27,225 nt of DNA from IMG/VR virus record IMGVR_UViG_3300010399_000730, positions 1 through 27,225 of that record; one strand, 5' to 3'. Positions 11,698 to 27,225 of the stretch are shown one piece after another. Both the position numbers and the translations under genes were made by a program. Each line of letters opens with the position of its first letter. The stretch's first letter is position 1. This DNA is from a virus. Below the pieces are notes generated by a model that made no database searches, had not been told where the DNA came from, and saw only the letters and a program-made list of their open reading frames with translations.

Positions 11698-12795
11698 TCA
11701 ATCAATGGATCGGAATACCCTGTTCCACCTTACTTTGTGAAAGATATCTTTCGTAGAATCGGTACTAAAAAAGTTGATGACGGCCTTGCCGATAATATGG
11801 TCTTCAGGAACATAACCCCAAAAGCGGCAGTCGAGGGAATCATGCCGGTTATCGCCCATCATCCAGTAATAATTCATTTTAAAAGTGTAACTATCTGCTT
11901 TTTTTCCATTTATAAGGATGTCATTCCCCGAGCCTTCAACTTTATTATGTTCGTAAACTTCGATGGCCCGGCGGTACAGGGCAAGCGTAGAATCATTCAG
12001 TTTTACGGTCCAACCCTTTTTGGGCATTTGGATGGGGCCAAAATTGTCGATGTTCCATTTAAAATGCGGGTCGTGGGGGAACATCGCAGTATCCGCAACA
12101 CCCGCAGGCTGAATGTAAGGAGTAACACTTTTAACGTTGGAAAATGATTTTAATGTTGCCACGCTTTGCGCCGGCATAACTACCTCGGCCGTATTGGGCC
12201 CAAGTGGCTGACGGATTTCCATATGCAGATCCTCGAGTGCCTGGGGATTGATATCGGTACCATCAGTAACCACTGCGTATGATGTTTGGGCTTTTGGCGC
12301 GTTCCATGACGCTTTTCCGTTTATATACACCTGGCTGTTAACGATAGTAAGCACATCGCCCGGTGTGGCCTGGCAGCGTTTGATAAGTGTAGTGCGCTGG
12401 TCGACAGGCACATCAAGGTCGGCGTCCGCAGGTTTATTAAACACTACCACATCGTATTTTTTAACGCTGGTGAACCCGGGAAGCCGGAAATAGGGCAGCT
12501 GAATGGCATCCCAGTAAGTTTTTACGCCAAACATAGTTGGCTCTGTAAACGGGATGGATAGTAGAGTGATGGGCATCCGAGGGCCATAGCTGCATTTACT
12601 TACAAAAAGGTAGTCCCCGGTTAGCTCAGTGCCTTCCATTGAACCGGAGGGAATAGCGTAGGCAGAAAACAATAAGCCACGGATAATTGTAGCCGCAACT
12701 ACTGCAAATATGATGGCATCAATCCATTCGCGCGTTTTACTTTTTTTAACTTTTGGCTTATTTGATTTCTTTTTACTGAGGAATTTCCAGTTCAT
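11698..12795 (-). CDS. lepB: Signal peptidase I
   Basis: A 365-residue membrane-bound type I signal peptidase (serine/lysine dyad), which removes signal peptides from exported proteins on the outer face of the inner membrane. After a Lys-rich N-terminus, one membrane span lies at about 24-46. The nucleophile is Ser52 in 'IPSGSMEGTEL', the general base Lys139 in 'TTLIKRCQATPGD', and the last conserved box is 'GDNRHDSLDCRFWG' at about 314-327, where Cys replaces the more usual Ser. The long segment between the Lys box and the last box is normal for Bacteroidota enzymes. Finding it on the virion strand between tape measure and protease genes is unusual. Its start codon is partly inside a perfect hairpin, and it is followed by the tandem repeat array. 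It may be host-derived cargo. Confidence 0.93.
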   Translation of the reverse strand: MNWKFLSKKKSNKPKVKKSKTREWIDAIIFAVVAATIIRGLLFSAYAIPSGSMEGTELTGDYLFVSKCSYGPRMPITLLSIPFTEPTMFGVKTYWDAIQLPYFRLPGFTSVKKYDVVVFNKPADADLDVPVDQRTTLIKRCQATPGDVLTIVNSQVYINGKASWNAPKAQTSYAVVTDGTDINPQALEDLHMEIRQPLGPNTAEVVMPAQSVATLKSFSNVKSVTPYIQPAGVADTAMFPHDPHFKWNIDNFGPIQMPKKGWTVKLNDSTLALYRRAIEVYEHNKVEGSGNDILINGKKADSYTFKMNYYWMMGDNRHDSLDCRFWGYVPEDHIIGKAVINFFSTDSTKDIFHKVRWNRVFRSID

Positions 12796-12848: not shown

Positions 12849-13085
12849 TTAATTATTCCCGGCAAAACTATTCAGCGCCCGCCAAATAGTGCGTTCATCT
12901 TTGCCAAACTTGATTTCAGCTTCAAGTACTGCCTGGTTTTTACTGATGCCCCGCGTTTTCGTTTGCGCCTGCACCCAAAGGTAAATTTCGCGGTATGTAA
13001 ACAGCTTTGCTGTAATAAAGCCGGCTTTGTACAAAGCCGAAAAGACGCCATCGTCAAACAGCGTGTTTGCGAGTTGGATGTTCAT
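12849..13085 (-). CDS. Small helix-turn-helix-like protein
   Basis: A 78-residue protein, probably all helical. The second half, 'GISKNQAVLEAEIKFGKDERTIWRALNSF' (described by its ends, about 46 and 74), looks like a helix-turn-helix: a 'K.QAVLEAEIKFG' helix, a turn at 'GKDE', then a recognition-like 'RTIWRALN' helix. Such proteins may bind DNA, but several small Bacteroidota proteins of unknown role share this look. It lies between the tape measure gene and lepB on the same strand, with 53 nt to the lepB start, so the two may be co-transcribed. No named family is claimed. Confidence 0.6.
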   Translation of the reverse strand: MNIQLANTLFDDGVFSALYKAGFITAKLFTYREIYLWVQAQTKTRGISKNQAVLEAEIKFGKDERTIWRALNSFAGNN

Positions 13086-13177: not shown

Positions 13178-15928
13178 CTACAGGTTGACCCTGTTGATAG
13201 TTTGTGCCAGTATATTTTGCTGGTTATTGATATCCTTTACATCGACATATACCGGGGGGAAATTATTGATCATTTGGTAAGCGATGGAGTTGGCCAGGTT
13301 TTTTTGGTCGTGAACCGGTTGGTTGTAGTAACGGTTGGCATCGCCGCCATCGGTAAAAATACCGCCTACTGCGTAACCCCGCCCCGGATTTGCTATGGAA
13401 AAATCCCGGCCGCCGAAGCCGACATTAATGGCGCTCACCAGGTTTCGCGCCCATGGGATACGCATTGCCTCTGATACCACAACCCCCTCGCCTGAACGGA
13501 GCCAGGCATTGGTGTTATCGGTTTTGCTGTAGCCTGGCAGTACGCCTCCACGGCCGTCTGAACTGTAATGTAAGCCGCCCGAAGCATAGGCAGGCGGTTT
13601 CTGCGCGGCTATTTTGGCGATCTCTACAGCAGTCTCAGCAATAATTACCGGGACTACAAAAGGCGAAAGTACACCGGATTGTGCCGTCGCCTTGGTAATG
13701 GCCAATGCGCCGTTGATAACAGCCTGTGCAATGGAGGCTTCCTGTTCCTGCTTAAATGCTTTGGCTTTTACCTGTGCCTCCTGTTGTTTAAACTTTTGTT
13801 CGATGGCCAGCTTTTGCGCTGAGGTTAAGCTGCTGTTGTTGAGCTCTGCTTGCTTATCTTGCTCCATCGACGCGATTTTGGCGTCGCTGGACTGTTTTAT
13901 TCCATTGCTGACAATTGAAAAGGCTTGGTCTGCCAGCTCTTTTGCATCCTTTAGCTCTTCATCTTTTAATTGCCGCCGCCTTTGTTTGTCTGCCTGGTCT
14001 TTTTTCTTGTCATATGCAGTTTTAACATCGTCCAATTCCTGTTGCAGATTTTTTTGAATCTCGGATAATGCGATTGCATTTCCTTTCGCCGCCGTAATTT
14101 CAAATTGATATTTGTCGTTGATCTCCTTTTTTTGTGCCTCAAACTTTGCTTGCGGATCGTCAGCATTATCCACTGCGCGTTTATCGTTTGTAAGCAATTG
14201 TTCATTCTTTTTCCTGGCGGCATCATCAGCTTCCTTATCATCAATGGCTTTTATTGCTGCAGTCGTTTGTTTCGTTATTTCGAGCCGCTTTGCATAGCTC
14301 AGCCACCATGCGGTCTCTTCATCTCCCAACTTTTTTTTAAGGACGGGCAGGTCATGGGATGATGCTGTTTTAATTTCAGCCTGCAGCTTTCTCTGGCGAC
14401 CTAATATATCCGCGTTGGCTTTGTCCAACTCCTGTAGTTTTTCGGCTTGCTGTTGTAAAACCTCCGCCTTTTCCTTGTCGGCGCCGTCCCTCATATTTTT
14501 GATCCGAAGTTCCGCTAATTCGTTCAAGGCTTGTTGGGTACGCTCTTTATCTTGCTCATTGTATTTGTTTGTTATAGCCTCAAGGTTGGCGTGGTTCTCA
14601 TTTAAAAGCTGGTTTTTTGAAGCGTCGAATTGTTTTTGGGTTATCTGTTTGTTTTTTAAAAACTCAGTTAGCTTTTTAAGTTCATCCTGGTAACGGTTGT
14701 TTTCGGCAAGCACCTCGCTGCCATAGGCGCTGTAGGTGGATTGCGGTTGACGCCGTAGCGAATCCGCCCTGATCCGGTCAGCTTCGCCGGCAAATGCTTT
14801 TTGCTGCTGCAAGGTTGACTTGTTTAGATCAATCAAATCATTATTGTCCTTCGCTACAATACCTAAAACCCTCGCACCATTGTTTTTTGTGTCCTCGGCA
14901 ACCATTGCGGTTAGTGCATCGTTCTGTTTTTTTAAAAGTGTTGAATTATGTTTTAAATCTGAAATAGCATTTTTAGCCGCTTTAACCTGTTCCTCAGCGC
15001 TTTGTTTATATCCATAAAGTTCATCAGCCTTTGAGTCGAATCCCTGTACACCATCGCCTCCTTTTTTGTTTTGTAAATATGTACTAAGCTGTTTTTGCGC
15101 TTCAACAAGCTGATCATTTAATTTTTTTAATTTTTCCGTTTGTTGCTCAATGGTTTTGTCGTTTGAAAACTGCCTGAGCATATTTTTTGTAATCGTTTCC
15201 TGCGCGGACTTTGCACGGGAATTTCCCATGATGGCCTCGGTTAATTTATCATATTCTTTTGTTGCTTTACCTTGCAGAATAGCATCCGTAGTTAAGTTTC
15301 CGAAATAGTCGGGAAATTCCGATTGCAATTCGGCAACAATTTTTCTTTGCTCCTTTTGGGATGCATTACGTTTTTGGGAGGCGTCGTAAAGCATTTTTAG
15401 ACGAATTAACTCTTGCTGGGCGTCATCTTTTCCTTGTGCCCTCACCTGGTTTACCGCATCCATAATAGCCTTATTATCCTTCAGTGCGCTATTTAGTGAT
15501 GAGACGGCCTGGTTAGCTTTAAATAAACCACCTACCCAATCAATTATTTGAGGTAGAAAAGTAACTATTATGGCAAGCCCGCCACTAAGGGAGAGCTTAA
15601 GTGCGTCAAATGACTCTGTGAAAATTTTGATTATGCCGTCCCAGGTTCCAAATGAACCAGCTAAATCGTTAACAGTATCTTTAACTTTATCGCCACTCGA
15701 TTTAAGCTTTTCATTTTGCGAATTCAGCTTGTCGATCGTTTCGTTTAGTTTAGACATATCTTTGCCCAAAGATCCGATATTACCCGACAAGCCTGCCAAT
15801 GGATTTGATAAGCCGTTAATTGAATTACGCAAACTATCAAAAGCAGCTTTATACTGGTTTATTTGCGCCTGGCCATCGGTGCCAACTTCTATGTCAATCA
15901 GGATTTTTTTATTGAAATCATCTGCCAT
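13178..15928 (-). CDS. Tail tape measure protein
   Basis: A 916-residue protein with the usual tape measure build. The N-terminus (1-90) is helical and rich in Ser/Asn. A hydrophobic segment lies at about 111-136. A very long coiled-coil region rich in Lys, Gln, Glu and Ala covers about 150-730. A second hydrophobic zone is at about 734-774, and it is followed by the Gly-rich 'ASGGLHYSSDGRGGVLPGYS' (782-801) and 'WLRSGEGVVV', which fit the C-terminal motif of tape measure proteins ('ASGG...LR.GE.V'). It sets tail length and crosses the host envelope during DNA entry. At about 1.5 angstrom per residue the tail would be near 137 nm. The gene has its own promoter candidate at 16194-16224, since plus-strand genes separate it from the tail genes upstream. 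Confidence 0.9.
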   Translation of the reverse strand: MADDFNKKILIDIEVGTDGQAQINQYKAAFDSLRNSINGLSNPLAGLSGNIGSLGKDMSKLNETIDKLNSQNEKLKSSGDKVKDTVNDLAGSFGTWDGIIKIFTESFDALKLSLSGGLAIIVTFLPQIIDWVGGLFKANQAVSSLNSALKDNKAIMDAVNQVRAQGKDDAQQELIRLKMLYDASQKRNASQKEQRKIVAELQSEFPDYFGNLTTDAILQGKATKEYDKLTEAIMGNSRAKSAQETITKNMLRQFSNDKTIEQQTEKLKKLNDQLVEAQKQLSTYLQNKKGGDGVQGFDSKADELYGYKQSAEEQVKAAKNAISDLKHNSTLLKKQNDALTAMVAEDTKNNGARVLGIVAKDNNDLIDLNKSTLQQQKAFAGEADRIRADSLRRQPQSTYSAYGSEVLAENNRYQDELKKLTEFLKNKQITQKQFDASKNQLLNENHANLEAITNKYNEQDKERTQQALNELAELRIKNMRDGADKEKAEVLQQQAEKLQELDKANADILGRQRKLQAEIKTASSHDLPVLKKKLGDEETAWWLSYAKRLEITKQTTAAIKAIDDKEADDAARKKNEQLLTNDKRAVDNADDPQAKFEAQKKEINDKYQFEITAAKGNAIALSEIQKNLQQELDDVKTAYDKKKDQADKQRRRQLKDEELKDAKELADQAFSIVSNGIKQSSDAKIASMEQDKQAELNNSSLTSAQKLAIEQKFKQQEAQVKAKAFKQEQEASIAQAVINGALAITKATAQSGVLSPFVVPVIIAETAVEIAKIAAQKPPAYASGGLHYSSDGRGGVLPGYSKTDNTNAWLRSGEGVVVSEAMRIPWARNLVSAINVGFGGRDFSIANPGRGYAVGGIFTDGGDANRYYNQPVHDQKNLANSIAYQMINNFPPVYVDVKDINNQQNILAQTINRVNL

Positions 15929-16403: not shown

Positions 16404-17069
16404 ATGAAAAAAGTTATCTTTCTCCTTTCACTTATCGCATTCGTCGGCTGTAAACCATCCGTCAAACAAAATTCAAATGGCGCTGATTCGGGAAGTACGG
16501 TCAACAGCAATGGAAAACCCATAGATACTTTGCAGTCCATTATTAACGCAAATATTAACCGTCAGCCTATTGTTGATACCACTTTTCTTGGATTCGCGTT
16601 TAGCATGACCGAAAAACAGGCGTTGGAGCATTACATTCAGTTGGTAAAAGATAAGCGCCTTGTGAAAGATGCCGATGGAAAACTGTTTGAGGCGCCGCTA
16701 ACCTTTAGCATGATAAAAGCTAAAGCAACGATAGGGCCGGAGTTTCACGATGGTAAAATGTATAAGCTCACCCTAATGATAACACCCGCTGATGATGCCG
16801 CAACGGCTGAAACTGTATTTTTCCAGGCGGCGACGGCCTATATGAAAAAGTACGATGGTGGCGGTTTTACTTTATACAGTGAGGCCGATCCGGCGGACCC
16901 GGCGGTAAAACGTTTTCATTGGATAAAGAACAATCTTCACATTTATTTATATAAAGGCAATGCGGAAACCTTTGTAAGTTATACCAATATGCCGGTTGGG
17001 CAACTGGTGTATAAGAGCAAGAAAAACGCGGCGGATAGTTCAAAGGCCCAAACCAGCAAGGATATTTAG
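16404..17069 (+). CDS. Predicted lipoprotein of unknown function, phage cargo
   Basis: A 221-residue protein with a signal peptide ending in a lipobox: basic 'MKK', hydrophobic 'VIFLLSLIAF', then 'VGC' with the lipidated Cys16. A Ser/Asn/Gly-rich linker (17-40) leads to a globular part at about 55-205 with 'FLGFAFSMTEKQALEHYIQLV' (ends 61 and 81), a helix after a short strand, and later beta strands. The C-terminus is polar. I recognise no named family. It has its own promoter and is followed after 100 nt by the TPR lipoprotein, in the same direction, so they probably form a pair. The two are placed between the 703-residue tail gene and the tape measure gene, against the virion direction. Confidence 0.85.
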   Translation: MKKVIFLLSLIAFVGCKPSVKQNSNGADSGSTVNSNGKPIDTLQSIINANINRQPIVDTTFLGFAFSMTEKQALEHYIQLVKDKRLVKDADGKLFEAPLTFSMIKAKATIGPEFHDGKMYKLTLMITPADDAATAETVFFQAATAYMKKYDGGGFTLYSEADPADPAVKRFHWIKNNLHIYLYKGNAETFVSYTNMPVGQLVYKSKKNAADSSKAQTSKDI

Positions 17070-17169
17070 TTGAAGATGGTTTACAGATTATCCAGGAATA
17101 ACCTGAAGAAGCGAGCGCCGGATATTTACAATTTAAAAATTAAACACTACAAATCCAAGTTTTATTAAA

Positions 17170-17817
17170 ATGAGAAAGATACTTCCAATTTTCTTAATAG
17201 CATTGTCAGCGTTATCCTGCGAGAACCGCGATGCTTCAAAATACTATGATGACGCCAAAACAAAGGTTGACAGCCTTAACCCAGGCGACAGTGCCGGAAC
17301 CGACAGAACCGCGAAGTTAAAAGAAGCTTTGCAGGACCTGGACAAAGCTGTAGCAAGCGATCCCGACTATGTAAAAGCATACCTGAAGAGGGCTTATGTA
17401 AAGCGAGCTCTTGGCGATAACCAGGGTGGTTTGGCAGATGCCGAAAAAGTAGTTGAGCTGGACCCCAAAAATGCTGAAGGCTACTCATTTATGGCCGAAA
17501 CCAAATCTATGTTGAACGACTACGCCGGCGCGGTAAAGGCATGGAGTAAAACGATTGAAATTTACCCTAAAAAAGGCTTTTTATATGGTTATCGCGCCGG
17601 CCAGGAAGCATCATCCGGCGATAAAACCGGTGCGTTAAAAGACTATGACCAGGCATTAGCATTAGCAGGAAACGATTTGGAAAAAAAACATTTTTATTAT
17701 GACCGCGGAATGCTTAAGCTGAACGTGAACGACAAAACAGGCTGTGCAGATCTGGCAAAATCGGCAGAATTGGGTTATGAACTGGCTAAAAAAGCTCTTG
17801 CAGATAGTTGTAAATAA
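17170..17817 (+). CDS. TPR-repeat lipoprotein, phage cargo
   Basis: A 215-residue protein with a lipoprotein signal peptide ('MRKILPIFLIALSALSC', Cys17). About four tetratricopeptide-like helix pairs follow at 67-100, 101-134, 135-168 and 174-205, with 'AYLKRAYVKRALGD', 'AEGYSFMAETKSMLND' and 'YDRGMLKLNVND' as examples. The last repeat ends in 'GCADLAKSAELGYELAKKAL', a frequent ending of Bacteroidota TPR/Sel1-like proteins. TPR folds bind partner proteins; the partner here is unknown and might be the neighbouring lipoprotein. No separate promoter was seen, so it is probably co-transcribed with the gene upstream. It ends 3 nt before the end of the convergent tail gene. Confidence 0.9.
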   Translation: MRKILPIFLIALSALSCENRDASKYYDDAKTKVDSLNPGDSAGTDRTAKLKEALQDLDKAVASDPDYVKAYLKRAYVKRALGDNQGGLADAEKVVELDPKNAEGYSFMAETKSMLNDYAGAVKAWSKTIEIYPKKGFLYGYRAGQEASSGDKTGALKDYDQALALAGNDLEKKHFYYDRGMLKLNVNDKTGCADLAKSAELGYELAKKALADSCK

Positions 17818-17820
17818 TAG

Positions 17821-19932
17821 TTATCCCAATTTCACCAATTCTACTTTCGTTGGCTGCCCTTTTCGCCAGGAATCGATCTTATTAATATAATAATAGGCAC
17901 TATCCTGTGCGATGTAAATCGGGATCATCAGGTCAAGCTCGAGAATATCGCGGGGTGTAAGCAGTAGATATCGTAGTACCTTTTTAGTTTGCGTGAGTAT
18001 TTTCTCCAGCTCGGGATAATATTTTAAGCGTAAGGCTTCAAACATAAGGCTGCCCTGGCCGTAGGCCGGATCGAGCACCGGCGCATCGGGTTTATAAAAA
18101 TACGGGGTGCTGATCACGTCATTGATCACCCGGGTATTGCCATTCCCGTCTGTAAACGTTACGTCCTGGTTGTTGAGGGCCAGTTTTTGATCGATGAGTA
18201 TCCTGGGAGTTACCCCAACGCTAAAGTCATTGCTGCCGCTTGTAATATCGATCATGTTGATCTGCGCGACCGTGCCCCCGGTGTATGGGCGATTGAAAGT
18301 TGGCCCAAAGGGGCTTGTAAAAAGTGTCGCGTTAGCTGGAAGTGTTTGGTCGTTGATCCTGATTTGCGACCACCCAAATTTTAATGGTAAAATATTGGGG
18401 TCGGTTTGGTATTGCATGTAATTCACCTGCGCATAGTTACCCAGTTGAAAGCTGACCTGCTTGCCCTGGTCAAGGCATTTATTGCTCCAGTCCCTTGCGA
18501 CGGGGATGTTATTTACAATATCCTTAAACGAATTAAAGGCAATAGTTTTGCTGGTGTTGTCCGTTTGGCAAATGATGCCGAATCGCTGCAGGGTGTCCTT
18601 CAAAAGATCTTTCTGGCTGATATCAGGGAATATCCTTTCACATTGCACGGTTTGCCCATATTGTACGGTTTGATTTTGACTTTTAATGATAAAAGTGGCG
18701 CCAGGGTAAATCCGGGCGAAACTGGGGTTATACCCATGCCACTCCAGCGCAACATACACGCCTCCGTTTTTAGGCAAAGTGGTTTGAAAAGAGATAACGG
18801 TGTTGTAAAGATCGATATGTGCAATGATGCCACCCCCATCTCCGCGTTCCCGCGTCCAGCCATTAGGATCGGATCCGGGGGGATTCCCTGCTTTTTTTTC
18901 GCCATGTCCGGCGAATGAAAAATCGTACCAGGTTAAAGCCACATCCTTATCAGCAGGATATCCCGGACTGCGGTAATAAAGGTTCATTCTCAAAATGGTG
19001 GGATTGCTGCCCGGAGATTCCTTGCCCTGCAAATAAACATGCGGAAAAGTTACGGTGATGCTAACGTCGTTAATATCATTAGCGGTGAATAAATTGTTAC
19101 CGGTGAATTGGTGCGACAGATCAGCATAAACCGTGCCCCATGTAAGCGTTGTTCCGGGATTAGCCGAATTCGGGTGATTCAGATCGAGCTGTGTTTGACT
19201 GGCAACGCTCAAGCCTTTATTGTCAACTTGATTTTGAAAGTCTGTGCCGTGCTCAAAACTACTGTTGGAAAACTGGGCGATCATTAACGGATAAAGCGGG
19301 TCGCCGAATAGTGAACCGGTGCCCTTATATCCCGAGGAGTGTAACAGCAACCCGATAGCCGTTTTGATAAAAAAGCCCGGCCGCAGGTCGTGCACATCAA
19401 TGGGGTCGGCAAAATTATCGCTTAAATTGCCATAGTCGATCACCGGATATATCCAGCCATCAGTTTTGGTTTGGGAATCGGCGGCATTATCCAGGTTCCA
19501 AAGATGATCAAAGGGTTTCCAAACCAGGTTTTGGCCGTAGTTGCTCCAAACGCTGGTGCTGTCGCCCATATCATACAATTTCCCGTCAATGGCATCAAAA
19601 AAATCAACATTGCCTGAAAGAATAGTAATACTTGCAGTGTCATGATCAATATTGTTCAGCTCACCTATCCCGTATGGCACTATTTCCAAACCATCCTGGA
19701 TAATTTTTGCCTGGTATTGCTGGTAAGGCAGGTTTGTGGCCAAAGCCACATCGTCTGGGAACCCCAATATCTGCCGGTTGCGCTGGGTTAACGGCAGCTT
19801 AAACTGGTTGCTGGTGTTTCCCTGCTGATTTTGCACCTCGGCCAGGTTGTTGATCTGGAAAGTTAAGGCAATTGGGGTGTCATCGCTGAGGTCGACAAGC
19901 TGGTCATTAATATATAGCTTGAGTTGGTCCAT
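17821..19932 (-). CDS. Large tail or baseplate-like protein (703 aa)
   Basis: A 703-residue soluble protein without signal peptide. The N-terminus 'LKLYINDQLVDLSDDTPIAL' (4-23) and then 'NQQGNTSNQFKLPLTQRNRQ' (about 35-54) recur, as far as I remember, in large structural proteins of Bacteroidota prophages near the tape measure gene. The body has many beta strands, and the C-terminal part holds 'RYLLLTPRDILELDLMIPIY' and 'YYINKIDSWRKGQPTKVELV', resembling a tail-tip or baseplate hub-like fold. It starts 32 nt after the 707-residue gene, so the two form one transcription unit and probably one substructure. Its downstream neighbours are now plus-strand cargo genes. The role is inferred from size, place and pattern. 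Confidence 0.75.
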   Translation of the reverse strand: MDQLKLYINDQLVDLSDDTPIALTFQINNLAEVQNQQGNTSNQFKLPLTQRNRQILGFPDDVALATNLPYQQYQAKIIQDGLEIVPYGIGELNNIDHDTASITILSGNVDFFDAIDGKLYDMGDSTSVWSNYGQNLVWKPFDHLWNLDNAADSQTKTDGWIYPVIDYGNLSDNFADPIDVHDLRPGFFIKTAIGLLLHSSGYKGTGSLFGDPLYPLMIAQFSNSSFEHGTDFQNQVDNKGLSVASQTQLDLNHPNSANPGTTLTWGTVYADLSHQFTGNNLFTANDINDVSITVTFPHVYLQGKESPGSNPTILRMNLYYRSPGYPADKDVALTWYDFSFAGHGEKKAGNPPGSDPNGWTRERGDGGGIIAHIDLYNTVISFQTTLPKNGGVYVALEWHGYNPSFARIYPGATFIIKSQNQTVQYGQTVQCERIFPDISQKDLLKDTLQRFGIICQTDNTSKTIAFNSFKDIVNNIPVARDWSNKCLDQGKQVSFQLGNYAQVNYMQYQTDPNILPLKFGWSQIRINDQTLPANATLFTSPFGPTFNRPYTGGTVAQINMIDITSGSNDFSVGVTPRILIDQKLALNNQDVTFTDGNGNTRVINDVISTPYFYKPDAPVLDPAYGQGSLMFEALRLKYYPELEKILTQTKKVLRYLLLTPRDILELDLMIPIYIAQDSAYYYINKIDSWRKGQPTKVELVKLG

Positions 19933-19964
19933 TTTTATTTTGGTTTTTAAGCGTTACTGAAATA

Positions 19965-22088
19965 CTATTGCCCTTGAATATTGATGGATGGCATATTAAA
20001 GGTCACGCTGAACGGCGCCTGACCGTTGAGGGTTTCATACTCGCTGAAGGTCGCCGTATTTAACACCACGGTTTGCCATTTTACCGGATTTTTATCCACC
20101 AGCATTTGTACTTTAGGAGAGTATTTGATGGACTGGAGCCCCTTAATGTCGGCAACCGACAGGTCCTCGGCCATTACTTTCATCTTTTGCCCGGCGCTTT
20201 TGCCGATCACCTCCTCGATGCCGTCCTGGTTTGCCCAATCAAACACATAGTTTTTTATGATCACCGCATTTTGCACGTCGAGCGAAACCTCCTGGTTGTA
20301 AACAAAGCGGTAATAATTCCACGACCCTGTTAAACCGATCCATCGCAGATATACAGATTGTTCGTCGACTGCGTCATCAATTCTGACTGTCTGACTTTGC
20401 GTTACCTGGTGCGGCGTACCATCGCTATCGTTGTACATTAATGCAAGGGTGAAAAAATAAATATCGCTGTCAAAAGCTTCATTGATCAGCAGGCGGTTCA
20501 AGCCAAGTTGAGCGGGTATTGGTGTGTTTACGGACGACTGGCTGGCAATAATAAATTTGCTGCCATCCTGGTTGAGCAGCCAGGAGCCGCCTTCATTCAA
20601 CAGGTAGCTATTTTGCGATCCACCTGGTAACGCGTTCCGGTTTATATCGAGTAAAGTAAGCTGGCAATAAAGCTGCAGGCCTGCCAGGTTCTCGCTATAA
20701 ATAAAACCAATATCAAAAGGATAGCCGTTTGAATACGCCGGCTCCGCAAAATCGGTTATCCATTTTGCGCGCTGGCTGCTATCAGTTACCGATTGAAATG
20801 GTACATAGGCGGCCAGGTTACCCCTGTAGGCATCGCCAAGCTGTTTTGCGGCATACAATACATAATAGGGATCGGTAACCGGTATATAAGTCAGCGTTTC
20901 GGCGCCGCTTAACTTACCATCCCAATACTCAGCATAAGCGATTTGGTAACTAGCGCTTAGACCATTGTCGCGATAATTGATTTGGGTGAAATCGCTGTTG
21001 TCCTTTGCACGTAACAGGCTTTGCAAAAAATTGCTGATGTCAGCTTTTACCAGGCCGGTATTGTCGGGTCGGTTTGCCGAGATGATGGTATTTTGCTGCC
21101 CCGAGACCGGATCCTGGTAAGTGATCTGTGTGCGTACCTGGTAGTACGGCCTTAACAGGTTAATGTTGATAAAGCCGGTAGCATTTGTGGTGAAAGGTGT
21201 GCTGATAACCAGGCTGCCATTGGTTTGCACAGAATTTACCTGGTATACACCCACATACGGGCCTGCATTTATATATATATTTACGGGCGTAACGTTGGTT
21301 AAAACGATATTAAGCAGGGCGGCGTTGCTGATCGCGCTATTATTTGCCGAGATGGCATTTGCGATGACGGTAGTATTGGTGTTAATTGCAACAGCAGCGT
21401 TTCCGCTCAAAGTATCCAGCGTGATGCCGGTAATTTCAAAATCCTTTCGCTGGTAGGTAAATACAACGGGGTTAAAAGCAGCATTCCATCGGGATATGTT
21501 GCCGCCGGTTAGTGCAACCGATGGGTCGCCTACCAATAAGTTGGTTATAATGGGTACAATGATGGCGTTATACTCCATACAACCATTGGCGTCGGTTACG
21601 TAGATGCTTTTTGTACCTCCGGTAAGCCCCGTGAATGTAGGCGACGATTGAAAAGTGACGTCGTCAAGGCTGTATTGAACAGGGCCGTAACTTGAGCTTG
21701 CATGTACTGTTATCTGCCCATCCGCCGCGCCGGGTGCCGATTCAGCCTGATCTACCGTAATAAAATTGATGGCTAAATCGCAAAGGTTCACCGGCGGTGG
21801 CGGGGGAGGGGTCTCGCTGATGCCTGTTATATTCCAGGAACTATAATGAAAGTCGCCGGGGTCCGAGTCACTTATGGTCCCACTGTAGATCGGGGCGCTT
21901 TGGCCGGAAATTACAGCGCTGCCATTGACGATACTGCCGTCGACGTTTTGAATATAGGTAACGACAACGTTGTTGCCATTCGTGGGCTGCAAGGTTGTTG
22001 AGTCATAAAGTGTGATAAATATCTGACCGCTGCGTTTGGTGCCGGTAAGATAGGTGTGCGAGTAGTCTACTTGAGCTATCAATGCCAT
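19965..22088 (-). CDS. Large tail protein with SprB-like repeat (707 aa)
   Basis: A 707-residue protein, with no signal peptide. Residues 1-90 form a beta-rich N-terminal part. A proline linker (PPPPPP, 94-99) leads to a domain at about 103-175 with 'DGQITVHASSSYGPVQYSLD' (123-142) and 'LTGGTKSIYVTDANGC' (155-170), which matches the SprB-type repeat of Bacteroidota adhesins and gliding-motility surface proteins. The rest (180-707) is a long beta-rich region ending in 'YSPKVQMLVDKNPVKW' and 'PFSVTFNMPSINIQGQ'. It is followed by the 703-residue tail gene and is most likely a tail-tip or baseplate protein. The SprB-like part might touch the host surface. Confidence 0.75.
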   Translation of the reverse strand: MALIAQVDYSHTYLTGTKRSGQIFITLYDSTTLQPTNGNNVVVTYIQNVDGSIVNGSAVISGQSAPIYSGTISDSDPGDFHYSSWNITGISETPPPPPPVNLCDLAINFITVDQAESAPGAADGQITVHASSSYGPVQYSLDDVTFQSSPTFTGLTGGTKSIYVTDANGCMEYNAIIVPIITNLLVGDPSVALTGGNISRWNAAFNPVVFTYQRKDFEITGITLDTLSGNAAVAINTNTTVIANAISANNSAISNAALLNIVLTNVTPVNIYINAGPYVGVYQVNSVQTNGSLVISTPFTTNATGFININLLRPYYQVRTQITYQDPVSGQQNTIISANRPDNTGLVKADISNFLQSLLRAKDNSDFTQINYRDNGLSASYQIAYAEYWDGKLSGAETLTYIPVTDPYYVLYAAKQLGDAYRGNLAAYVPFQSVTDSSQRAKWITDFAEPAYSNGYPFDIGFIYSENLAGLQLYCQLTLLDINRNALPGGSQNSYLLNEGGSWLLNQDGSKFIIASQSSVNTPIPAQLGLNRLLINEAFDSDIYFFTLALMYNDSDGTPHQVTQSQTVRIDDAVDEQSVYLRWIGLTGSWNYYRFVYNQEVSLDVQNAVIIKNYVFDWANQDGIEEVIGKSAGQKMKVMAEDLSVADIKGLQSIKYSPKVQMLVDKNPVKWQTVVLNTATFSEYETLNGQAPFSVTFNMPSINIQGQ

Positions 22089-22127
22089 TGTATCGGGTTG
22101 TTTGAGTATGTTTGTTGGATAAGTTGA

Positions 22128-22589
22128 TTAGTTTGGGAATGCCCTCCGGAAATATTGGGCGATCATATCGATCAGTAAGCTGCCGATCTCGTCAGCAATT
22201 GTCTCCAACGCCGGTGTTAGCCGTTGGGCGATATTTGCCTCGTCAAGCGGTTCAGAAAGAATCCCTGGCTTGCCTTTGTAGCCCTTTTTGTCTATCGATT
22301 TTTTGATGGCCCATGCAGCTTTGTCAGGAATACCTTTAACCCGGCACCATGCGTGGATCCTGTCAATCATCGGCGGATTGCCGGCCACAGGGTTTTTGCC
22401 TGTTGGCCCGCGCCCTGTTTCGAGCAGCTGCATATACTCCGGCATTTGCAACCGGAGACCGGCATTTCCTTTGACGATCGTCAGCGACTTGGCGGTTTGT
22501 CCGGTTGAATTACTCCCTGCTGCCTGCAAGGAGTTGATGATGTCCGTGCGGAGGGATTCGAGGAAGGGAATAAGTTGTTCGGTATTCAT
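22128..22589 (-). CDS. HK97 gp10-like neck or tail-completion protein
   Basis: A 153-residue protein. The N-terminal helix is followed by 'STGQTAKSLTIV' (27-38) and 'LRLQMPEYMQLLETGRGPTGKN' (ends about 45 and 66). An 'S...Y..(L/F)E.GRGP' motif is a hallmark of HK97 gp10-like and related neck proteins. The C-terminus is an amphipathic helical tail. These proteins close the head-tail joint. The gene lies 125 nt after the tail-terminator-like gene and 39 nt before the large tail protein gene. It is far from the other head genes, which is odd. Confidence 0.75.
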   Translation of the reverse strand: MNTEQLIPFLESLRTDIINSLQAAGSNSTGQTAKSLTIVKGNAGLRLQMPEYMQLLETGRGPTGKNPVAGNPPMIDRIHAWCRVKGIPDKAAWAIKKSIDKKGYKGKPGILSEPLDEANIAQRLTPALETIADEIGSLLIDMIAQYFRRAFPN

Positions 22590-22714
22590 AGTTGCTGGTG
22601 GTTCTTTGATAGTTCATAGTTCATAGTGTGGAAAGGGGCTTTAGTTTATGGTTATGTAAAAGCCGGAGGCAGCATTGGCGATAAGCACTCCTTACATGAA
22701 CTAATCGCTGACGA

Positions 22715-23167
22715 TTAGCCTGTAAAACTGTCGAAATACATCGTTGCGAGCGTAATGCTGAGATTAACCCCGGTGGTGTTAACATCGAATTTATTATATA
22801 CGGGAAGGCATTTTGCCCGGTCGCCGGCTTTGACGCGGAAATAGCGGCCTTCGCCTTCGCGATAACTCGATGCTTTCACTATAAATTCATTAGCCAGCGA
22901 AAGGGCTTGTGTTACATAGGTTTCGTTTGCTGAGGTATACTGGTCGAAATCTGTCTTAAATAAAAACTCGAGATAAACTGAAAAACTGTTATTTACCGAG
23001 CCATTCACCTGGGGCGATACGCCGATGGGCTGAAGGGGGTACATAAAAACGACGGGAAACACGGCGTCATCAGCCAGTTGATTGAGCTCATTGGCGGTGC
23101 CGTACACAAAAGTCACCGGGGTACTGAGGGTTTGTGTGATCGCTTCGATTTGATTTCGTATAGGCAT
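22715..23167 (-). CDS. Putative tail terminator or tail completion protein
   Basis: A 150-residue protein with an N-terminal helix ('RNQIEAITQTL', 3-13), several beta strands around 'DAVFPVVFMYPLQP' (about 34-47), 'FSVYLEFLFKTDFDQY' and a helix 'TQALSLANEFIVKA', then a C-terminal strand. The alpha-beta-beta order and length fit the tail terminator family (lambda gpU-like and related), whose hexamer stops tail polymerisation. It follows the tail assembly chaperone gene, with a 92-nt spacer rich in octamer repeats. Identification is by fold pattern only. Confidence 0.6.
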   Translation of the reverse strand: MPIRNQIEAITQTLSTPVTFVYGTANELNQLADDAVFPVVFMYPLQPIGVSPQVNGSVNNSFSVYLEFLFKTDFDQYTSANETYVTQALSLANEFIVKASSYREGEGRYFRVKAGDRAKCLPVYNKFDVNTTGVNLSITLATMYFDSFTG

Positions 23168-23259
23168 GGGGATAGTTATTGAGTTATTGAATTATTGAGT
23201 TATGGGTTTTTAGTTTGTGAATTAGTGAATGGGTGTACGGACGTAGTGGCGGGTATTGT
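23168..23259. repeat. Octamer repeat spacer
   Basis: Three tandem octamers, TTATTGAG, TTATTGAA and TTATTGAG, cover 23176-23199, followed by degenerate forms (TTATGGG, GAATTAGTGAAT). The word GAGTTATTGAGTT of this type also occurs at 3980-3995. No gene is present. Confidence 0.75.
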
Positions 23260-23442
23260 TTACCCACGGATTAGGTCGCTGTAGCGTTTTTGGTATTCGG
23301 CCTCTGTTTTATTAAGGAGCAGTTTGGTTAATATGCGTTCATAGGGCATATTTAATATTTCAGACCATTTGCTGATATCACCGCCCGAAAGGGAATTTAA
23401 GGTGTTAACATATTTAAACTTTTCAAAAGCGCTGATTCCCGC
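23260..23442 (-). CDS. Frameshift extension of the tail assembly chaperone
   Basis: This is the -1-frame segment that continues the chaperone gene. It would be joined after the slippery heptamer at 23442-23448 to give a 279-residue fusion (219 residues from the first frame and 60 from this one, 'AGISAFEKFKYVNTLNSLSGG' being its start). The frame could be read as a separate 64-residue protein starting at GTG (23454), but its start lies inside the slippery stretch, so a frameshift product fits better. In lambda, the G/GT fusion binds both the tape measure and the tube protein. The segment is helical and charged, like other GT tails. Confidence 0.65.
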   Translation of the reverse strand, partial: AGISAFEKFKYVNTLNSLSGGDISKWSEILNMPYERILTKLLLNKTEAEYQKRYSDLIRG

Positions 23443-24098
23443 TTTTTTTTCCACCGCTGTCGAAGCCGTTCCAAGCAGTTTGTTTTCGGCTGCGATAAGA
23501 CCGGATAAATCCGAAAAAAATGTTTGGCGATGGGCAGCGCCTCCATGACCCTTAGTTTTTTTATTTCCACGCTAAATTTTTCCGCCTCATATTCATTGTA
23601 TAATTTACCGGTGACGCCGCAATAAAAGTAATGGGCCAATACCTGGCAGCATGCTTTTAACGATGGATTAAAAGTTGACTGCAAATCGCTCTTACCATAT
23701 TTGCGGGTATGTTCATTTATCTCTTCTGCAATTATTTCTCTGGCCGCAAAAAAAGCGCCCACCGGCTCCACGGATAAATTATGCTGGACAGTTACAGTTT
23801 TGGTCCTGCCAGCCAGAGGGAAGGTTAGCCGTTTTGGCACCCGGTCGTTACCATAAAGGCTTTTCAACTGTTTCGATAGCAGTAAAATGACCTCACCGAA
23901 GATATACAGATCGTCCAATTTTTTGACGTTTTGCAATTCAGGTAATGGAACCCCCGACAAAATGCTGATGGCCTCGAGGTCGGTTAACATCGGTTTTTCC
24001 TGCATGTCCATTACTTGTCCCAGTGTGATCTCGTCGATTGTTGAAGGGATAGTGATCACCAGCTTTCCCGCCAGGGTAGTTACTGTTTTTTTAATCAT
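23397..24098 (-). CDS. Tail assembly chaperone-like protein (zero-frame product)
   Basis: A 233-residue protein. The N-terminal strands and 'IDEITLGQVMDMQ' (about 21-33) are followed by 'DLEAISILSGVPLPELQNV' (ends about 40 and 58) and a helical middle, resembling the N-terminal domain of tail assembly chaperones in phages of Bacteroidota. The C-terminus after 'LRQRWKKK' overlaps a second frame by 58 nt and ends with a basic tail. The A8 run supports a -1 shift to a longer form. The gene lies directly after the large terminase gene, separated from its expected partner, the tape measure gene, by four tail genes and the cargo genes. The function is inferred from the pattern and the frameshift layout. 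Confidence 0.7.
   Translation of the reverse strand: MIKKTVTTLAGKLVITIPSTIDEITLGQVMDMQEKPMLTDLEAISILSGVPLPELQNVKKLDDLYIFGEVILLLSKQLKSLYGNDRVPKRLTFPLAGRTKTVTVQHNLSVEPVGAFFAAREIIAEEINEHTRKYGKSDLQSTFNPSLKACCQVLAHYFYCGVTGKLYNEYEAEKFSVEIKKLRVMEALPIAKHFFRIYPVLSQPKTNCLERLRQRWKKKRESALLKSLNMLTP
23442..23448 (-). promoter_or_regulatory. Slippery heptamer for -1 programmed frameshift
   Basis: On the minus strand the codons are TGG AAA AAA AAG CGG in the zero frame, so the heptamer A AAA AAG is in the canonical frame for -1 slippage. The full A run is 8 long (23443-23450). A weak 6-bp pairing of GGGAAT (23435-23440) with 23391-23396 follows, but it lies very close to the slip site. Confidence 0.75.
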
Positions 24099-24153
24099 AC
24101 TTATTGATCATAATGATTTGATTTTTTTTTTCGGTCTGAATTGTTATCGTTCG

Positions 24154-25374
24154 TCATCTTAACAGGTTGAACGATGCGAAATCGAACGTCGGCGCCGGCC
24201 GGACCGGCAGCCGGCTGCTCACCCGGCCGCTTCCACAAATGTTTAGCTTGTGCAGCGCCACATAACGCAGAGGATCTATCAAATGGTTGTAAACATCAAC
24301 TGGCTGATTTATGGCCCGACCTGAATGGTCGGTTCGCCATTTGTAGCGCCCCAGTTCCCTGCGCAGGTTCACGCTCCGGGTAGTTATGTTTATGCGATAA
24401 CGCTTTAATATGTCAATAGAGTTTTTAATGCTGTCGGGCCCTTTTTTTGCGCCGGTAACCCGCCACCCCAGCCGGTTCAATTCTTCTATGGATTTTGGCT
24501 CGGCGCTGTCGGCAATGATCTCCATGTTTTTATTTAAACCCGCCTCTGCCAATCTGGCCGAAATATCGGGGTTGGTTAAATGGGTTTCATATAATAGTTC
24601 ATCTACCCAGATCATGCCATTTTGCTTATAAACCATCACACAGCCCGTTTGATCGTTGGTGAATCCAAAGTCGAGCCCGGCGGCCAGGGGCTTTGCGCCT
24701 GCCGGGATAGCTTCACACAGTTGCCAGTTGGTAAATACCAACCCGCGAACCCTTCCCGTGAGTCCTCTTGCATACACCCGCCATAATTCCACGTCCTCAT
24801 CTTTTAACGATTCTATCTTCTGCCTTTCCTGCGGCGACAAAAATGGATTGTGCCTGTGATCGGAAATGAAGAGGCCTACGCCGGGTTTCCCTACCAGGTG
24901 GTCGTGAACCCAAAAGGATGAATTTGGATTGAAGTCGATAAATATTTTTTTCCGCGTGCGAAGCGCGAGTTCCGAATAGATCTCCCATTTTACGCCGTTC
25001 GCCTCATTTACAAACAAATAATCACGTTTTCCCGATTTGGCATCCTGGGCATCTGCGTAGCTTTTAAACTCGATGATGCTACCGTTATGAAACTCAAATA
25101 CCCGGTCAGTTTTATGATAACTTTCTAATGCAGGCTGAAATATTTCTGACGCTGAACATATTGCCAGCGCATCGCGCAATGCCCCGCCCTTTAGGTTCGG
25201 AATATCCTGCCCGGCAACGGTTATTACCTGTTTTTCACTTTCACAAGCCAGGCAAAACAGTACCTGTAAAACGGCATAGGTTTTTCCCGAATTGGTGCCG
25301 CCCTGGTTGATGACCACATGGGCATCGGTGTTATAATTGTGTTTAAAAAGCCTCGTGGCGGATAACTTATCCAT
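24154..25374 (-). CDS. terL: Terminase large subunit
   Basis: A 406-residue ATPase-nuclease that packages DNA into the prohead. The Walker A motif is 'GGTNSGKT' at 25-32. The Walker B-like strand is 'YLFVNE' at 119-124, with Glu124 as the catalytic base (VNE instead of VDE). The nuclease domain at about 228-380 shows the acidic residues of the RNase H-like fold: Asp235 in 'GLDFGF', Asp289 in 'IIADSAEP', and Asp367 in 'NHLIDPLRY'. The length is normal for the PBSX/SPP1-like group, and the whole frame is intact. The gene is separated from the small subunit gene by a plus-strand lipoprotein gene. No clear promoter was seen in the short 83-nt leader facing it. Confidence 0.95.
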   Translation of the reverse strand: MDKLSATRLFKHNYNTDAHVVINQGGTNSGKTYAVLQVLFCLACESEKQVITVAGQDIPNLKGGALRDALAICSASEIFQPALESYHKTDRVFEFHNGSIIEFKSYADAQDAKSGKRDYLFVNEANGVKWEIYSELALRTRKKIFIDFNPNSSFWVHDHLVGKPGVGLFISDHRHNPFLSPQERQKIESLKDEDVELWRVYARGLTGRVRGLVFTNWQLCEAIPAGAKPLAAGLDFGFTNDQTGCVMVYKQNGMIWVDELLYETHLTNPDISARLAEAGLNKNMEIIADSAEPKSIEELNRLGWRVTGAKKGPDSIKNSIDILKRYRINITTRSVNLRRELGRYKWRTDHSGRAINQPVDVYNHLIDPLRYVALHKLNICGSGRVSSRLPVRPAPTFDFASFNLLR

Positions 25375-25429
25375 GTTACACTTTTACAATAGTTTACGTA
25401 AAGACTTGGAATATTTAAAAAACAAATGT

Positions 25430-25437
25430 TAATTTTA
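25430..25437 (+). promoter_or_regulatory. Weak promoter candidate for the lipocalin-like lipoprotein
   Basis: TAATTTTA here follows TTG (25406-25408) by 21 nt, a near match to the Bacteroidota -33/-7 pattern with one mismatch and slightly long spacing. It lies 20 nt upstream of the ATG at 25458. Confidence 0.3.
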
Positions 25438-25457
25438 AATCGATTAATGCTGCGGTT

Positions 25458-25907
25458 ATGAAATATAGGTTGCTGGTACTTATCTGCCCTGTGATATTTT
25501 CATTGTATTCATGCAAAAAACAGAACCCCGCTCCCACTACAAGCGCGCTGCTTGTAGGAAAATGGTATTTCGCTACGCAGGCTTCCGTATTATATAGAAA
25601 CGACAAAGAAATCGCCACTTTCAACAAAACAAATTTTACCAACGACGATTTTATTGAATATTATAAAGATGGATCAGGGTATTATTCCAAATCTACCTCA
25701 ACAGGTCCCAGCTTGAGTGAGTTTACCTACAGCCTGAGCGGGTCCACAATTACACAATATACAAGTGCGCAGAACAGCGGCGTGCCGGAAACCATTAAAA
25801 ATATTACCTCAACCGGGTTGTCGGTTCATGTCGTTCAATTGGTGCCGGATCCGAATGATCCCACGGTGACGGATACCGAGATAGATGATCTGACCTATAC
25901 TAAATAA
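25458..25907 (+). CDS. Lipocalin-like predicted lipoprotein between terminase genes
   Basis: A 149-residue protein with a lipoprotein signal peptide ending in 'LYSC' (Cys19), a Pro/Thr linker, then 'LLVGKWYFA' (about 31-39), which resembles the 'L.GKW' start of lipocalin-like beta-barrel domains in Bacteroidota lipoproteins. Alternating strands continue to the C-terminus, ending near a polar tail. It probably sits on the outer membrane. The gene lies on the plus strand between the small and large terminase genes and ends 2 nt before the stop of the convergent small terminase. Its function is unknown; protection against other phages is one idea. Confidence 0.85.
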   Translation: MKYRLLVLICPVIFSLYSCKKQNPAPTTSALLVGKWYFATQASVLYRNDKEIATFNKTNFTNDDFIEYYKDGSGYYSKSTSTGPSLSEFTYSLSGSTITQYTSAQNSGVPETIKNITSTGLSVHVVQLVPDPNDPTVTDTEIDDLTYTK

Positions 25908-25909
25908 GA

Positions 25910-26350
25910 TCATGTAACTACGTCTGCTTCGTTTGCGGCTATCGCCGGCCCGGTTTCAGCGTCCATTAATTTGATGTACCTAACCTGATCTTCATTTGCC
26001 CGGCGATCACCTGGCCTCCCATTCGGGCACAAATTTTTAAGGGCAAACAACGCGCCCGAGGGCGACGGGTTGTGAAGCATTTTTTCGTACACCGCAGCTA
26101 CCCTTAAACGGCCCCGGCTCACGATGTGCCCGAACTCGCCGTTTTGTTCATAGTCATCCAGCTCCTGCAGGCTGGTAAGGCCAATATAAAGCGCCAGACC
26201 GGCAACGGTGGCCGGTTCAGGGTCTCTGCTATATTTTTTTTCTTCTTTACCCGATTTTGTTTCAGTACGATATTCACCCTCAATATAATTAAAATAAGCT
26301 TCGATTTTATTGGTTAATTTCCTGGCTGTTTTAAAGAAAGGCGGTAGCAT
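25910..26350 (-). CDS. terS: Terminase small subunit
   Basis: A 146-residue protein with the expected pattern: 'KIEAYFNYIEGEYR' (14-27), 'EPATVAGLALYIGLTS' (about 45-60), 'LDDYEQNGEFGHIVSRGRLRV' (ends about 64 and 84), 'VYEKML' and 'GALFALKNLCPNG'. This is the usual small terminase build of an N-terminal HTH for DNA recognition followed by a helical oligomerisation part. It recognises pac or cos DNA and recruits the large subunit. It is the first gene of the virion-strand cluster and has a good promoter candidate at 26388-26418. The large subunit gene follows after a lipoprotein gene on the other strand. Confidence 0.9.
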   Translation of the reverse strand: MLPPFFKTARKLTNKIEAYFNYIEGEYRTETKSGKEEKKYSRDPEPATVAGLALYIGLTSLQELDDYEQNGEFGHIVSRGRLRVAAVYEKMLHNPSPSGALFALKNLCPNGRPGDRRANEDQVRYIKLMDAETGPAIAANEADVVT

Positions 26351-26363
26351 AAATATGAATTAA

Positions 26364-26379
26364 ATGCCGATTGGCATAT
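26364..26379. promoter_or_regulatory. Palindromic motif in the terminase leader, candidate operator
   Basis: ATGCCGATTGGCATAT has arms ATGCC and GGCAT with a 4-nt centre. It lies between the promoter candidate and the terS start and differs at one base from the motif at 11369-11384. It could be an operator or a small leader hairpin. Confidence 0.5.
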
Positions 26380-26387
26380 ATCAGATG

Positions 26388-26418
26388 TAAAGATACAAAA
26401 AAATCCTGTTAAACGCAA
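26388..26418 (-). promoter_or_regulatory. Promoter candidate heading the late cluster
   Basis: On the minus strand: TTG (26418-26416), 20 nt, then TATCTTTA (26395-26388), one mismatch to TAnnTTTG. The start of transcription would be near 26381, about 30 nt before the terS start codon. The element pair and spacing match the promoter at 16194-16224. Confidence 0.55.
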
Positions 26419-26631
26419 GTTTTTTTTAACAAACAAACCGAAATTTTAATTTTCAATTTATGGTTAAACTTTTATTCGGCATGTTGGTTAAACCCATAAG
26501 GTCATCTAAGATGGGTTAAATTAGGCAGGTAAGTTAAAATTTGTTAAAATGTTAATTGTATAGCACGTTAAGCAACTATTTGTTCACTATCTTCGTTTAT
26601 TATTTAATAAGTTTAGCGTTTGCAGTATCAA
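26396..26631. other. AT-rich intergenic region with GTTAAA repeats
   Basis: This region between the divergent terS and lipoprotein genes has no open frame worth calling. The word GTTAAA recurs: GGTTAAAC at 26462-26469 and 26486-26493, GGTTAAA at 26514-26520, and GTTAAA at 26533-26538 and 26543-26548. No convincing plus-strand promoter was found for the lipoprotein gene. Confidence 0.4.
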
Positions 26632-27225
26632 ATGGGCAACAAAACGTTTACTAACTTTTTATTGGCGGCAGCAATATTCCTTTTGGCAACGGTTTCCGCG
26701 TGCCAAAAAGATCCCGCTGTGAATAGCCCCGGCCCATCCACCACCAGCATAAATGCGGATAGTTCGATTATTTCCTCACCAGGTAATTTCCTGGCCGTTA
26801 CCGGTACGTTAAAAGTAAAATTCAACGATTCGGTTTATACATTTGATGCTTCACGCGATTCCATTGCTTTTATAAATGTTAACGGAGACGACCAGAGTCG
26901 TTATTTTGGCATTACAGCCATTAACAAGGCACATTCCGTAAGCTTTGGCATCAGTTCCGCGGGTTTCGCCTTCAGCAATATTAACCGCAGTATTGCCGGA
27001 AGCCAGTTGCTGTTAAGCGTCGACAGTAAAAAGCCGGTGCTTCAGTTGTCACTAAGCCGAAACCAGCCTGACACGAAGCCCGATCTCGGTAATCTGAACC
27101 TGGTACGGTACAAAGACGGCAATGAACTTGCAAAAGGGACCTTTTATACTTTTATGGCGACGGATGATAAACCCAACTCGCCCTATTATCGTGTTGAAGG
27201 CAGCTTTGACCTAAAGCTTAAATAG
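26632..27225 (+). CDS. Predicted lipoprotein of unknown function
   Basis: A 197-residue protein if started at the ATG at 26632; an upstream TTG at 26620 is a less likely start. The signal peptide is 'MGNKTFTNFLLAAAIFLLAT' followed by a lipobox 'VSAC' (Cys24). A Pro/Ser/Thr-rich linker and a strand-rich region follow ('LKVKFNDSVYTFDASRDSIAF', ends about 62 and 82), ending 'YRVEGSFDLKLK'. This beta-sandwich-like C-terminal part is common in Bacteroidota lipoproteins of unknown role (DUF6252-like in look). The gene is complete and its stop codon is at the window edge. It could be host DNA beside the prophage or cargo. Confidence 0.85.
   Translation: MGNKTFTNFLLAAAIFLLATVSACQKDPAVNSPGPSTTSINADSSIISSPGNFLAVTGTLKVKFNDSVYTFDASRDSIAFINVNGDDQSRYFGITAINKAHSVSFGISSAGFAFSNINRSIAGSQLLLSVDSKKPVLQLSLSRNQPDTKPDLGNLNLVRYKDGNELAKGTFYTFMATDDKPNSPYYRVEGSFDLKLK

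Follow-up and report, generated by a model that had tools for sequence, protein, structure and literature searches.

The window analysed here, the full 27,225 nucleotides of a virus record (IMG/VR IMGVR_UViG_3300010399_000730), appears to represent, in Mucilaginibacter, an old head–tail gene cluster of phage origin that is held at one fixed locus and passed on vertically, and not a mobile prophage. Genes on the strand opposite to the particle genes would have settled in a few joints of this cluster, and most of them have a predicted function in the cell envelope. Lipocalin-like lipoproteins occupy the terS/terL and tail/tail joints, varied lipoproteins the tail/tape-measure joint, and O-acyltransferase or FkbM methyltransferase genes adjoin the tail fibres. 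A fourth lipoprotein gene, LP4, seems to be of a different kind, a lineage gene flanking the cluster. As the genome of the window exists only as a virus record, we infer its host from its relatives.

Pfam and PHROG profile searches of the window proteins placed all packaging, head and tail genes on the minus strand. The small terminase gene terS (25910–26350; PF16677 GP3_package, E = 7.5e-8), which is kept in remnant loci, lies beside the large terminase gene terL (24154–25374; PF17288 and PF04466), whose product matches PDB 2WBN/2WC9 (E = 1.4e-12) and has a nuclease domain resembling that of SPP1. Two tail proteins of about 700 residues are encoded by T707 (19965–22088; PHROG virion structural, conserved across related loci) and T703 (17821–19932), the latter serving as our cluster marker, and a tape measure gene with PHROG tape measure matches lies at 13178–15928. 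The head genes comprise a Clp-type maturation protease (9984–11192; PF00574 and PHROG), a portal protein (6279–7568; PHROG portal, E = 2.6e-75) and a putative major capsid protein (8667–9875), assigned from gene order and conservation, with 78–98% identity across most relatives and a match to PHROG 11320, a PHROG of unknown function. A tail fibre-like gene with PHROG tail matches (4042–5382) and, at the downstream end, the small lysis-region genes hol1 and hol2 (1–629), assigned from their position and their conservation beside phage lysozyme in relatives, are also on the minus strand. A signal peptidase I paralogue (11698–12795; TIGR02227 and PF10502), complete and on the late strand, is an optional member, found inside the cluster in the branch of the window and in some relatives, while most genomes have two to three paralogues. 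The 78-residue protein encoded between the tape measure and protease genes (12849–13085) ranks with the most strongly conserved cluster proteins (about 62–93% identity) and carries no known domain. Pfam and PHROG scans of the window proteins revealed neither an integrase nor a replication gene, no tRNA gene that could serve as an insertion site lies within the window, and a megablast search of 50,697 phage records returned no closely related named phage.

On the plus strand, our analysis confirmed the four lipobox-bearing reading frames reported by the first-pass annotation, together with their placement: those starting at 16404 and 17170 (LP1 and LP2) at the tail-protein/tape-measure joint, that at 25458 (LP3) at the terS/terL joint, and that at 26632 (LP4) just upstream of terS. 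A mechanical lipobox test was passed by these four proteins and by none of the 22 other window proteins. The earlier count of six plus-strand genes, five of them envelope-related, has to be lowered in its total, the credible plus-strand genes being five: LP1–LP4 and an acyltransferase.

Matches to T703 were found in 53 related loci in viral contigs and in 62 named genome records, almost all of Mucilaginibacter. Within this genus, 89 of 150 species carry the gene, nearly always as a single open copy; among 400 genomes drawn from the family, strong matches were confined to the genus, with few sporadic distant relatives elsewhere. Synteny was read in 21 windows of 60 kb, taken from 20 genomes, and the cluster lay between the same neighbours in most of them. 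The left neighbours are an S24-type regulator and a 138-residue protein, joined in the larger branch by an RRM protein and LP4, and the right neighbour is often a BNR protein. The S24-type regulator, present in 134 of the 150 species and single copy in nearly all of these, has a helix-turn-helix and adjoins the cluster in most species; it might control the cluster. In seven of the windows (G001, G002, G010, G041, G057, G065 and G120) the right flank has a tyrosine integrase gene immediately outside the BNR protein, perhaps left over from the original phage. One genome, G128, holds a second, divergent T703 with an LP3-like gene (C1:1345531–1347663; windows L215–L217) some 150 kb from its main cluster, and two loci (L026 and L029) have a relocated tape measure gene, between terL and the gene at 23397.

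Species with missing genes retain traces of the cluster in place. Pieces of terS or terL were found at the same position in 37 of 40 loci from such species, often accompanied by hol1 and the right neighbour, whereas G008, G036 and G131 keep only downstream pieces. Of these 40 reduced loci, 39 lack a T703 match and that of G008 retains the C-terminal part of the gene. terL is found in 124 of the 150 species and is truncated in about 20, counts to be read with the fact that the genomes are drafts and that loci from metagenome bins may be incomplete. About 40% of the species have lost T703, and the capsid gene is broken or missing in some others; the cluster is dispensable, given these losses. 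A tree of seven cluster proteins shared 14 of 25 splits with the rpoB tree (mean 0.3 and maximum 3 in shuffles), with a single strong conflict and a Mantel r of 0.88. The core genes evolve under purifying selection (dN/dS 0.04–0.24), and the base composition (GC) of the cluster equals that of its flanks. The in-place remnants, the congruence with rpoB, the dN/dS values and the base composition together indicate that the cluster was inherited vertically from the ancestor of the genus and was repeatedly lost later. The locus is thus fixed, vertically inherited and maintained by purifying selection. The label of prophage given at first does not hold for a locus that is fixed in the genus, tracks the host tree and leaves remnants where its genes are lost. 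For the same reasons, namely the fixed locus, the tree congruence and the in-place remnants, we rejected both an ordinary prophage and repeated insertion at one attachment site. Of the features by which a temperate prophage is recognised (integrase, attachment sites, variable position), the position proved fixed and no integrase occurs in the window.

Loss has recurred at one exact site in terL. In 15 other species the gene is broken by an internal deletion after the same codon, the end of an N-G-S or N-G-T motif, which corresponds to the boundary of codons 99 and 100 of the window gene (25077–25078); loci L235, L224, L227 and L267 are examples. The synonymous bases at the break codon differ among the broken species, and the right ends of the deletions lie in hol1, the capsid gene, the end of the tape measure gene, f42 or the fibre gene, with an identical terL/capsid junction in three distant species. 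A single ancestral deletion was rejected, as the terL tree intersperses broken with intact copies, the right ends of the deletions differ, and the broken copy of G124 stands beside the intact copy of its close relative G001. Independent breaks at one site call for a site-specific cause, for which a homing-nuclease target, a packaging-initiation cut or another site-specific process are candidates. Other recurrent left ends fall in the 23397 gene (near residue 196), the 22715 gene (residue 27) and T707 (around residue 575).

The four lipoprotein genes differ in their histories. LP4 (26632–27225, listed ORF start 26620; lipobox VSAC|Q) lies at the upstream edge, antisense to terS, and is predicted to be beta-rich, with no convincing structural match for its predicted fold. 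It occurs in 115 of 150 Mucilaginibacter species, nearly always as a single copy with a conserved C-Q-K-D after the lipobox, and in no genome from outside the genus among the 400 drawn from the family. In all 33 remnant loci that have both, LP4 is antisense and within 5 kb upstream of terS/terL, and it is present where the cluster has been reduced to stubs. Its dN/dS is about 0.1. Six cluster-bearing windows lack it (G003, G018, G027, G054, G117 and G145), and it probably joined the locus later. The genus-wide single copy, the fixed placement and the survival where the cluster was deleted mark LP4 as a lineage gene and not as cargo. An origin of LP4 as phage cargo was rejected on its single-copy presence, its restriction to the genus and its outliving of the cluster, so that the suggestion of four cargo genes fails at this fixed core gene of the lineage.

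LP3 (25458–25907; lipobox LYSC|K) is a predicted lipocalin-like lipoprotein at the terS/terL joint. PF13648 (Lipocalin_4) was matched by 6 of 16 members of its family (best E = 1.9e-6), LP3 itself scoring below threshold, and an AlphaFold2 model of LP3 shows a beta-barrel (pLDDT 86) with lipocalin matches at TM scores of about 0.4–0.5. In this predicted fold it resembles the lipocalin-like lipoproteins of Bacteroidota (PF13648; PDB 4GZV, BACOVA_00364), from which its relatives differ by their antisense placement at two fixed joints in a cluster of phage origin. Across 101 clusters, the LP3 family is antisense at exactly these two joints, terS/terL (24 inserts) and T707/T703 (21 inserts), and the family tree places several groups at each, suggesting that a lipocalin-like lipoprotein was probably captured more than once at both. 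LP3 evolves fast. As a resident of the terS/terL joint in many species, it fits the notion of cargo poorly.

The two remaining genes share the T703/tape-measure joint. The family of LP1 (16404–17069; lipobox FVGC|K) is antisense at this joint in 5 of the 101 clusters; LP1 itself occurs in 5 of 150 species and adjoins T703 in the three in which it could be placed (G024, G028 and, in broken form, G069). LP2 (17170–17817; lipobox ALSC|E) has Pfam matches to TPR repeats, and its relatives are antisense at the same joint in three clusters and occupy other joints elsewhere. The LP1, LP3 and LP4 proteins of the window gave no Pfam or NCBIfam match. What remains of the proposal that the lipoprotein genes are sporadic cargo applies to LP1 and LP2, the only two with such a distribution, and not to LP3 or LP4. 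In most clusters, at least one sense-strand gene for a secreted protein or lipoprotein of about 190–220 residues lies at the T703/tape-measure joint (for example L009 10424–11011 and L018 10617–11228); the window has none there and carries LP1 and LP2 instead.

To compare joints, we counted as inserts all genes of at least 100 residues between core genes in 101 non-redundant clusters; gene calling, lipobox test and family assignment were mechanical, and a Pfam check covered a sample of the acyltransferases only. A lipobox was present in 62 of 99 antisense inserts. Among proteins of 100–300 residues, it was found in 61 of 98 antisense inserts (62%) and in 21 of 302 flanking ORFs (7%). Since relatives are not independent, we collapsed the inserts by identity: at 40%, the lipobox remained in 22 of 50 insert clusters compared with 19 of 197 flanking clusters (p = 1.2e-7), and at 25% in 8 of 33 compared with 18 of 172 (p = 0.04), a weak lipoprotein excess. 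At the fibre/lysis joint, where the window carries an acyltransferase-3 membrane protein gene on the plus strand (674–1678; PF01757, E = 5.6e-19), an acyltransferase-3 gene is antisense in 13 of 40 regions and sense in 6, and three further regions have only an FkbM methyltransferase gene, bringing regions with either to 22 of 40. The antisense genes are thus biased towards the envelope and specific to particular joints, and the early idea of an envelope-modification package gains support as a genus-wide pattern, from the lipobox excess and from the acyltransferase and FkbM genes recurring at their joints. The promoter candidates assigned to two of the lipoprotein genes fared less well: no promoter signal for the antisense genes rose above chance for either pattern searched, sigma-70-like (26 sites against 23.1 ± 5.0 in shuffles) or Bacteroidota-type (1 against 1.8 expected).

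This pattern has to be weighed against a main rival that we consider somewhat improbable, in which the cluster is a slowly decaying remnant whose operon joints tolerate inserts, short lipoprotein genes are simply frequent in Bacteroidota, and the antisense genes are either neutral or of use to the host in some unrelated way. Deletion is indeed widespread in the genus, lipocalin-like relatives were matched in 136 of 150 genomes, small variable genes are found in sense orientation too (153 in the 101 clusters, compared with 99 antisense), and some joints hold inserts that are not lipoproteins, as at TMP/CLP (0 of 11). Such a harbour would not readily account for a lipoprotein fraction that exceeds that of the flanks and depends sharply on the joint, with 24 of 25 inserts at terS/terL, 22 of 26 at T707/T703 and low fractions at other joints; after clustering, lipoproteins made up 5 of 5 groups at terS/terL, 9 of 12 at T707/T703, 5 of 11 at T703/TMP and 3 of 22 elsewhere. 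Every insert of at least 100 residues at terS/terL and T707/T703 is antisense, the fibre joint holds its own class of envelope enzyme, and the core genes remain under purifying selection, all of which argues against mere tolerance of inserts.

We favour a domesticated cluster resembling gene transfer agents (GTAs) whose envelope-acting antisense genes have a role in self-exclusion, a proposal that, taken whole, we judge to be an even call. The antisense genes would be transcribed from promoters of their own while the particle genes are silent, and their products would alter or mask the surface bound by the particle's own fibres. A clone would then neither adsorb nor die from its own or related particles, and the surface genes would be kept beside the particle genes because they bear on how cells meet these particles. 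Particle production, the timing of expression and self-exclusion are what we infer here from the genes. An acyltransferase beside exchangeable fibres fits receptor alteration. Phage O-acetyltransferases (PHROG 3333; Acyl_transf_3, PF01757) are likewise membrane acyltransferases carried with phage genes and are usually read as modifying surface receptors. The gene of the window differs in that the fibres it adjoins belong to a fixed element and that FkbM methyltransferases take its place in some species. For the lipoproteins, the analogy is Ltp of Streptococcus phage TP-J34, a superinfection-exclusion lipoprotein that blocks entry (PMC3952083); like LP1–LP4, it is a surface lipoprotein of a phage-derived region encoded apart from the late operon, and by this analogy the cluster lipoproteins might block entry. 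Ltp is encoded in the lysogeny module of a phage that infects Gram-positive bacteria (PMC3952083), whereas the cluster lipoproteins have lipocalin-like or TPR features and occupy late-gene joints. None of the antisense genes of the window matches a known exclusion protein. This counts against the favoured reading, as do the dispensability of the cluster, the integrase on the right flank, the absence of a promoter signal above chance, the fast evolution of LP3 and the weak lipobox excess at 25% identity.

Vertical inheritance with repeated loss is the pattern of GTAs and domesticated prophages (PMC9662315, PMC11841831). As in GTAs, packaging, head and tail genes lie in one cluster that is inherited vertically at a fixed locus under purifying selection and holds no integrase or replication genes. 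The GTAs of Alphaproteobacteria (RcGTA, Rhodogtaviriformidae) share the phage-derived head–tail genes, the lack of integrase and replication genes, the vertical inheritance and the purifying selection. The cluster differs from RcGTA in belonging to another phylum, in the antisense envelope genes in its joints, in its frequent loss and in being known from genes alone; its portal and capsid proteins match no solved structure, no homology to a recognised GTA family having emerged for these two proteins from the PDB sequence set, a narrow test. We therefore use the term GTA-like instead of classing the cluster as a GTA, since it is known from its genes and showed no homology to a named GTA in that search. 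PBSX-type domesticated defective prophages also have a fixed locus and retain packaging and tail genes, a likeness to the cluster by description only. No GTA has been reported in Bacteroidota in the literature searched. A bolder version of the favoured reading, which we think unlikely, is a Bacteroidota GTA fixed in the Mucilaginibacter ancestor, with an opposite-strand self-exclusion set matched to its exchangeable fibres and with the terL N-G-S break marking the start of in-place chromosome packaging.

Two further readings are much less probable. The lipoproteins could serve the life cycle of the particle, for example in release through the envelope or in DNA uptake, and be expressed with it, which would suit their staying inside the cluster and the several related lipoprotein or secreted genes on the sense strand at T703/TMP; we find this very improbable, as members of the LP3, LP1 and LP4 families, in every case where they occur at the cluster, face the other way from the particle genes, and many clusters have no such lipoproteins. 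An ordinary temperate prophage, with its antisense genes acting as morons that exclude other phages, would explain the complete set of packaging, head, tail and lysis genes, yet it is very improbable for an element with one fixed locus, a host-like tree, in-place remnants, a window devoid of integrase and replication genes, and an LP4 that outlives the cluster.

In the favoured reading of a domesticated, GTA-like cluster, the supposed prophage turns into a candidate system for gene transfer, or a candidate domesticated phage, that is conserved across a genus of which many species are in culture. The repeated, site-exact deletions document naturally the places at which the cluster is prone to cutting, and the joint-specific opposite-strand envelope genes give access to the question of how producers might escape the particles they make.
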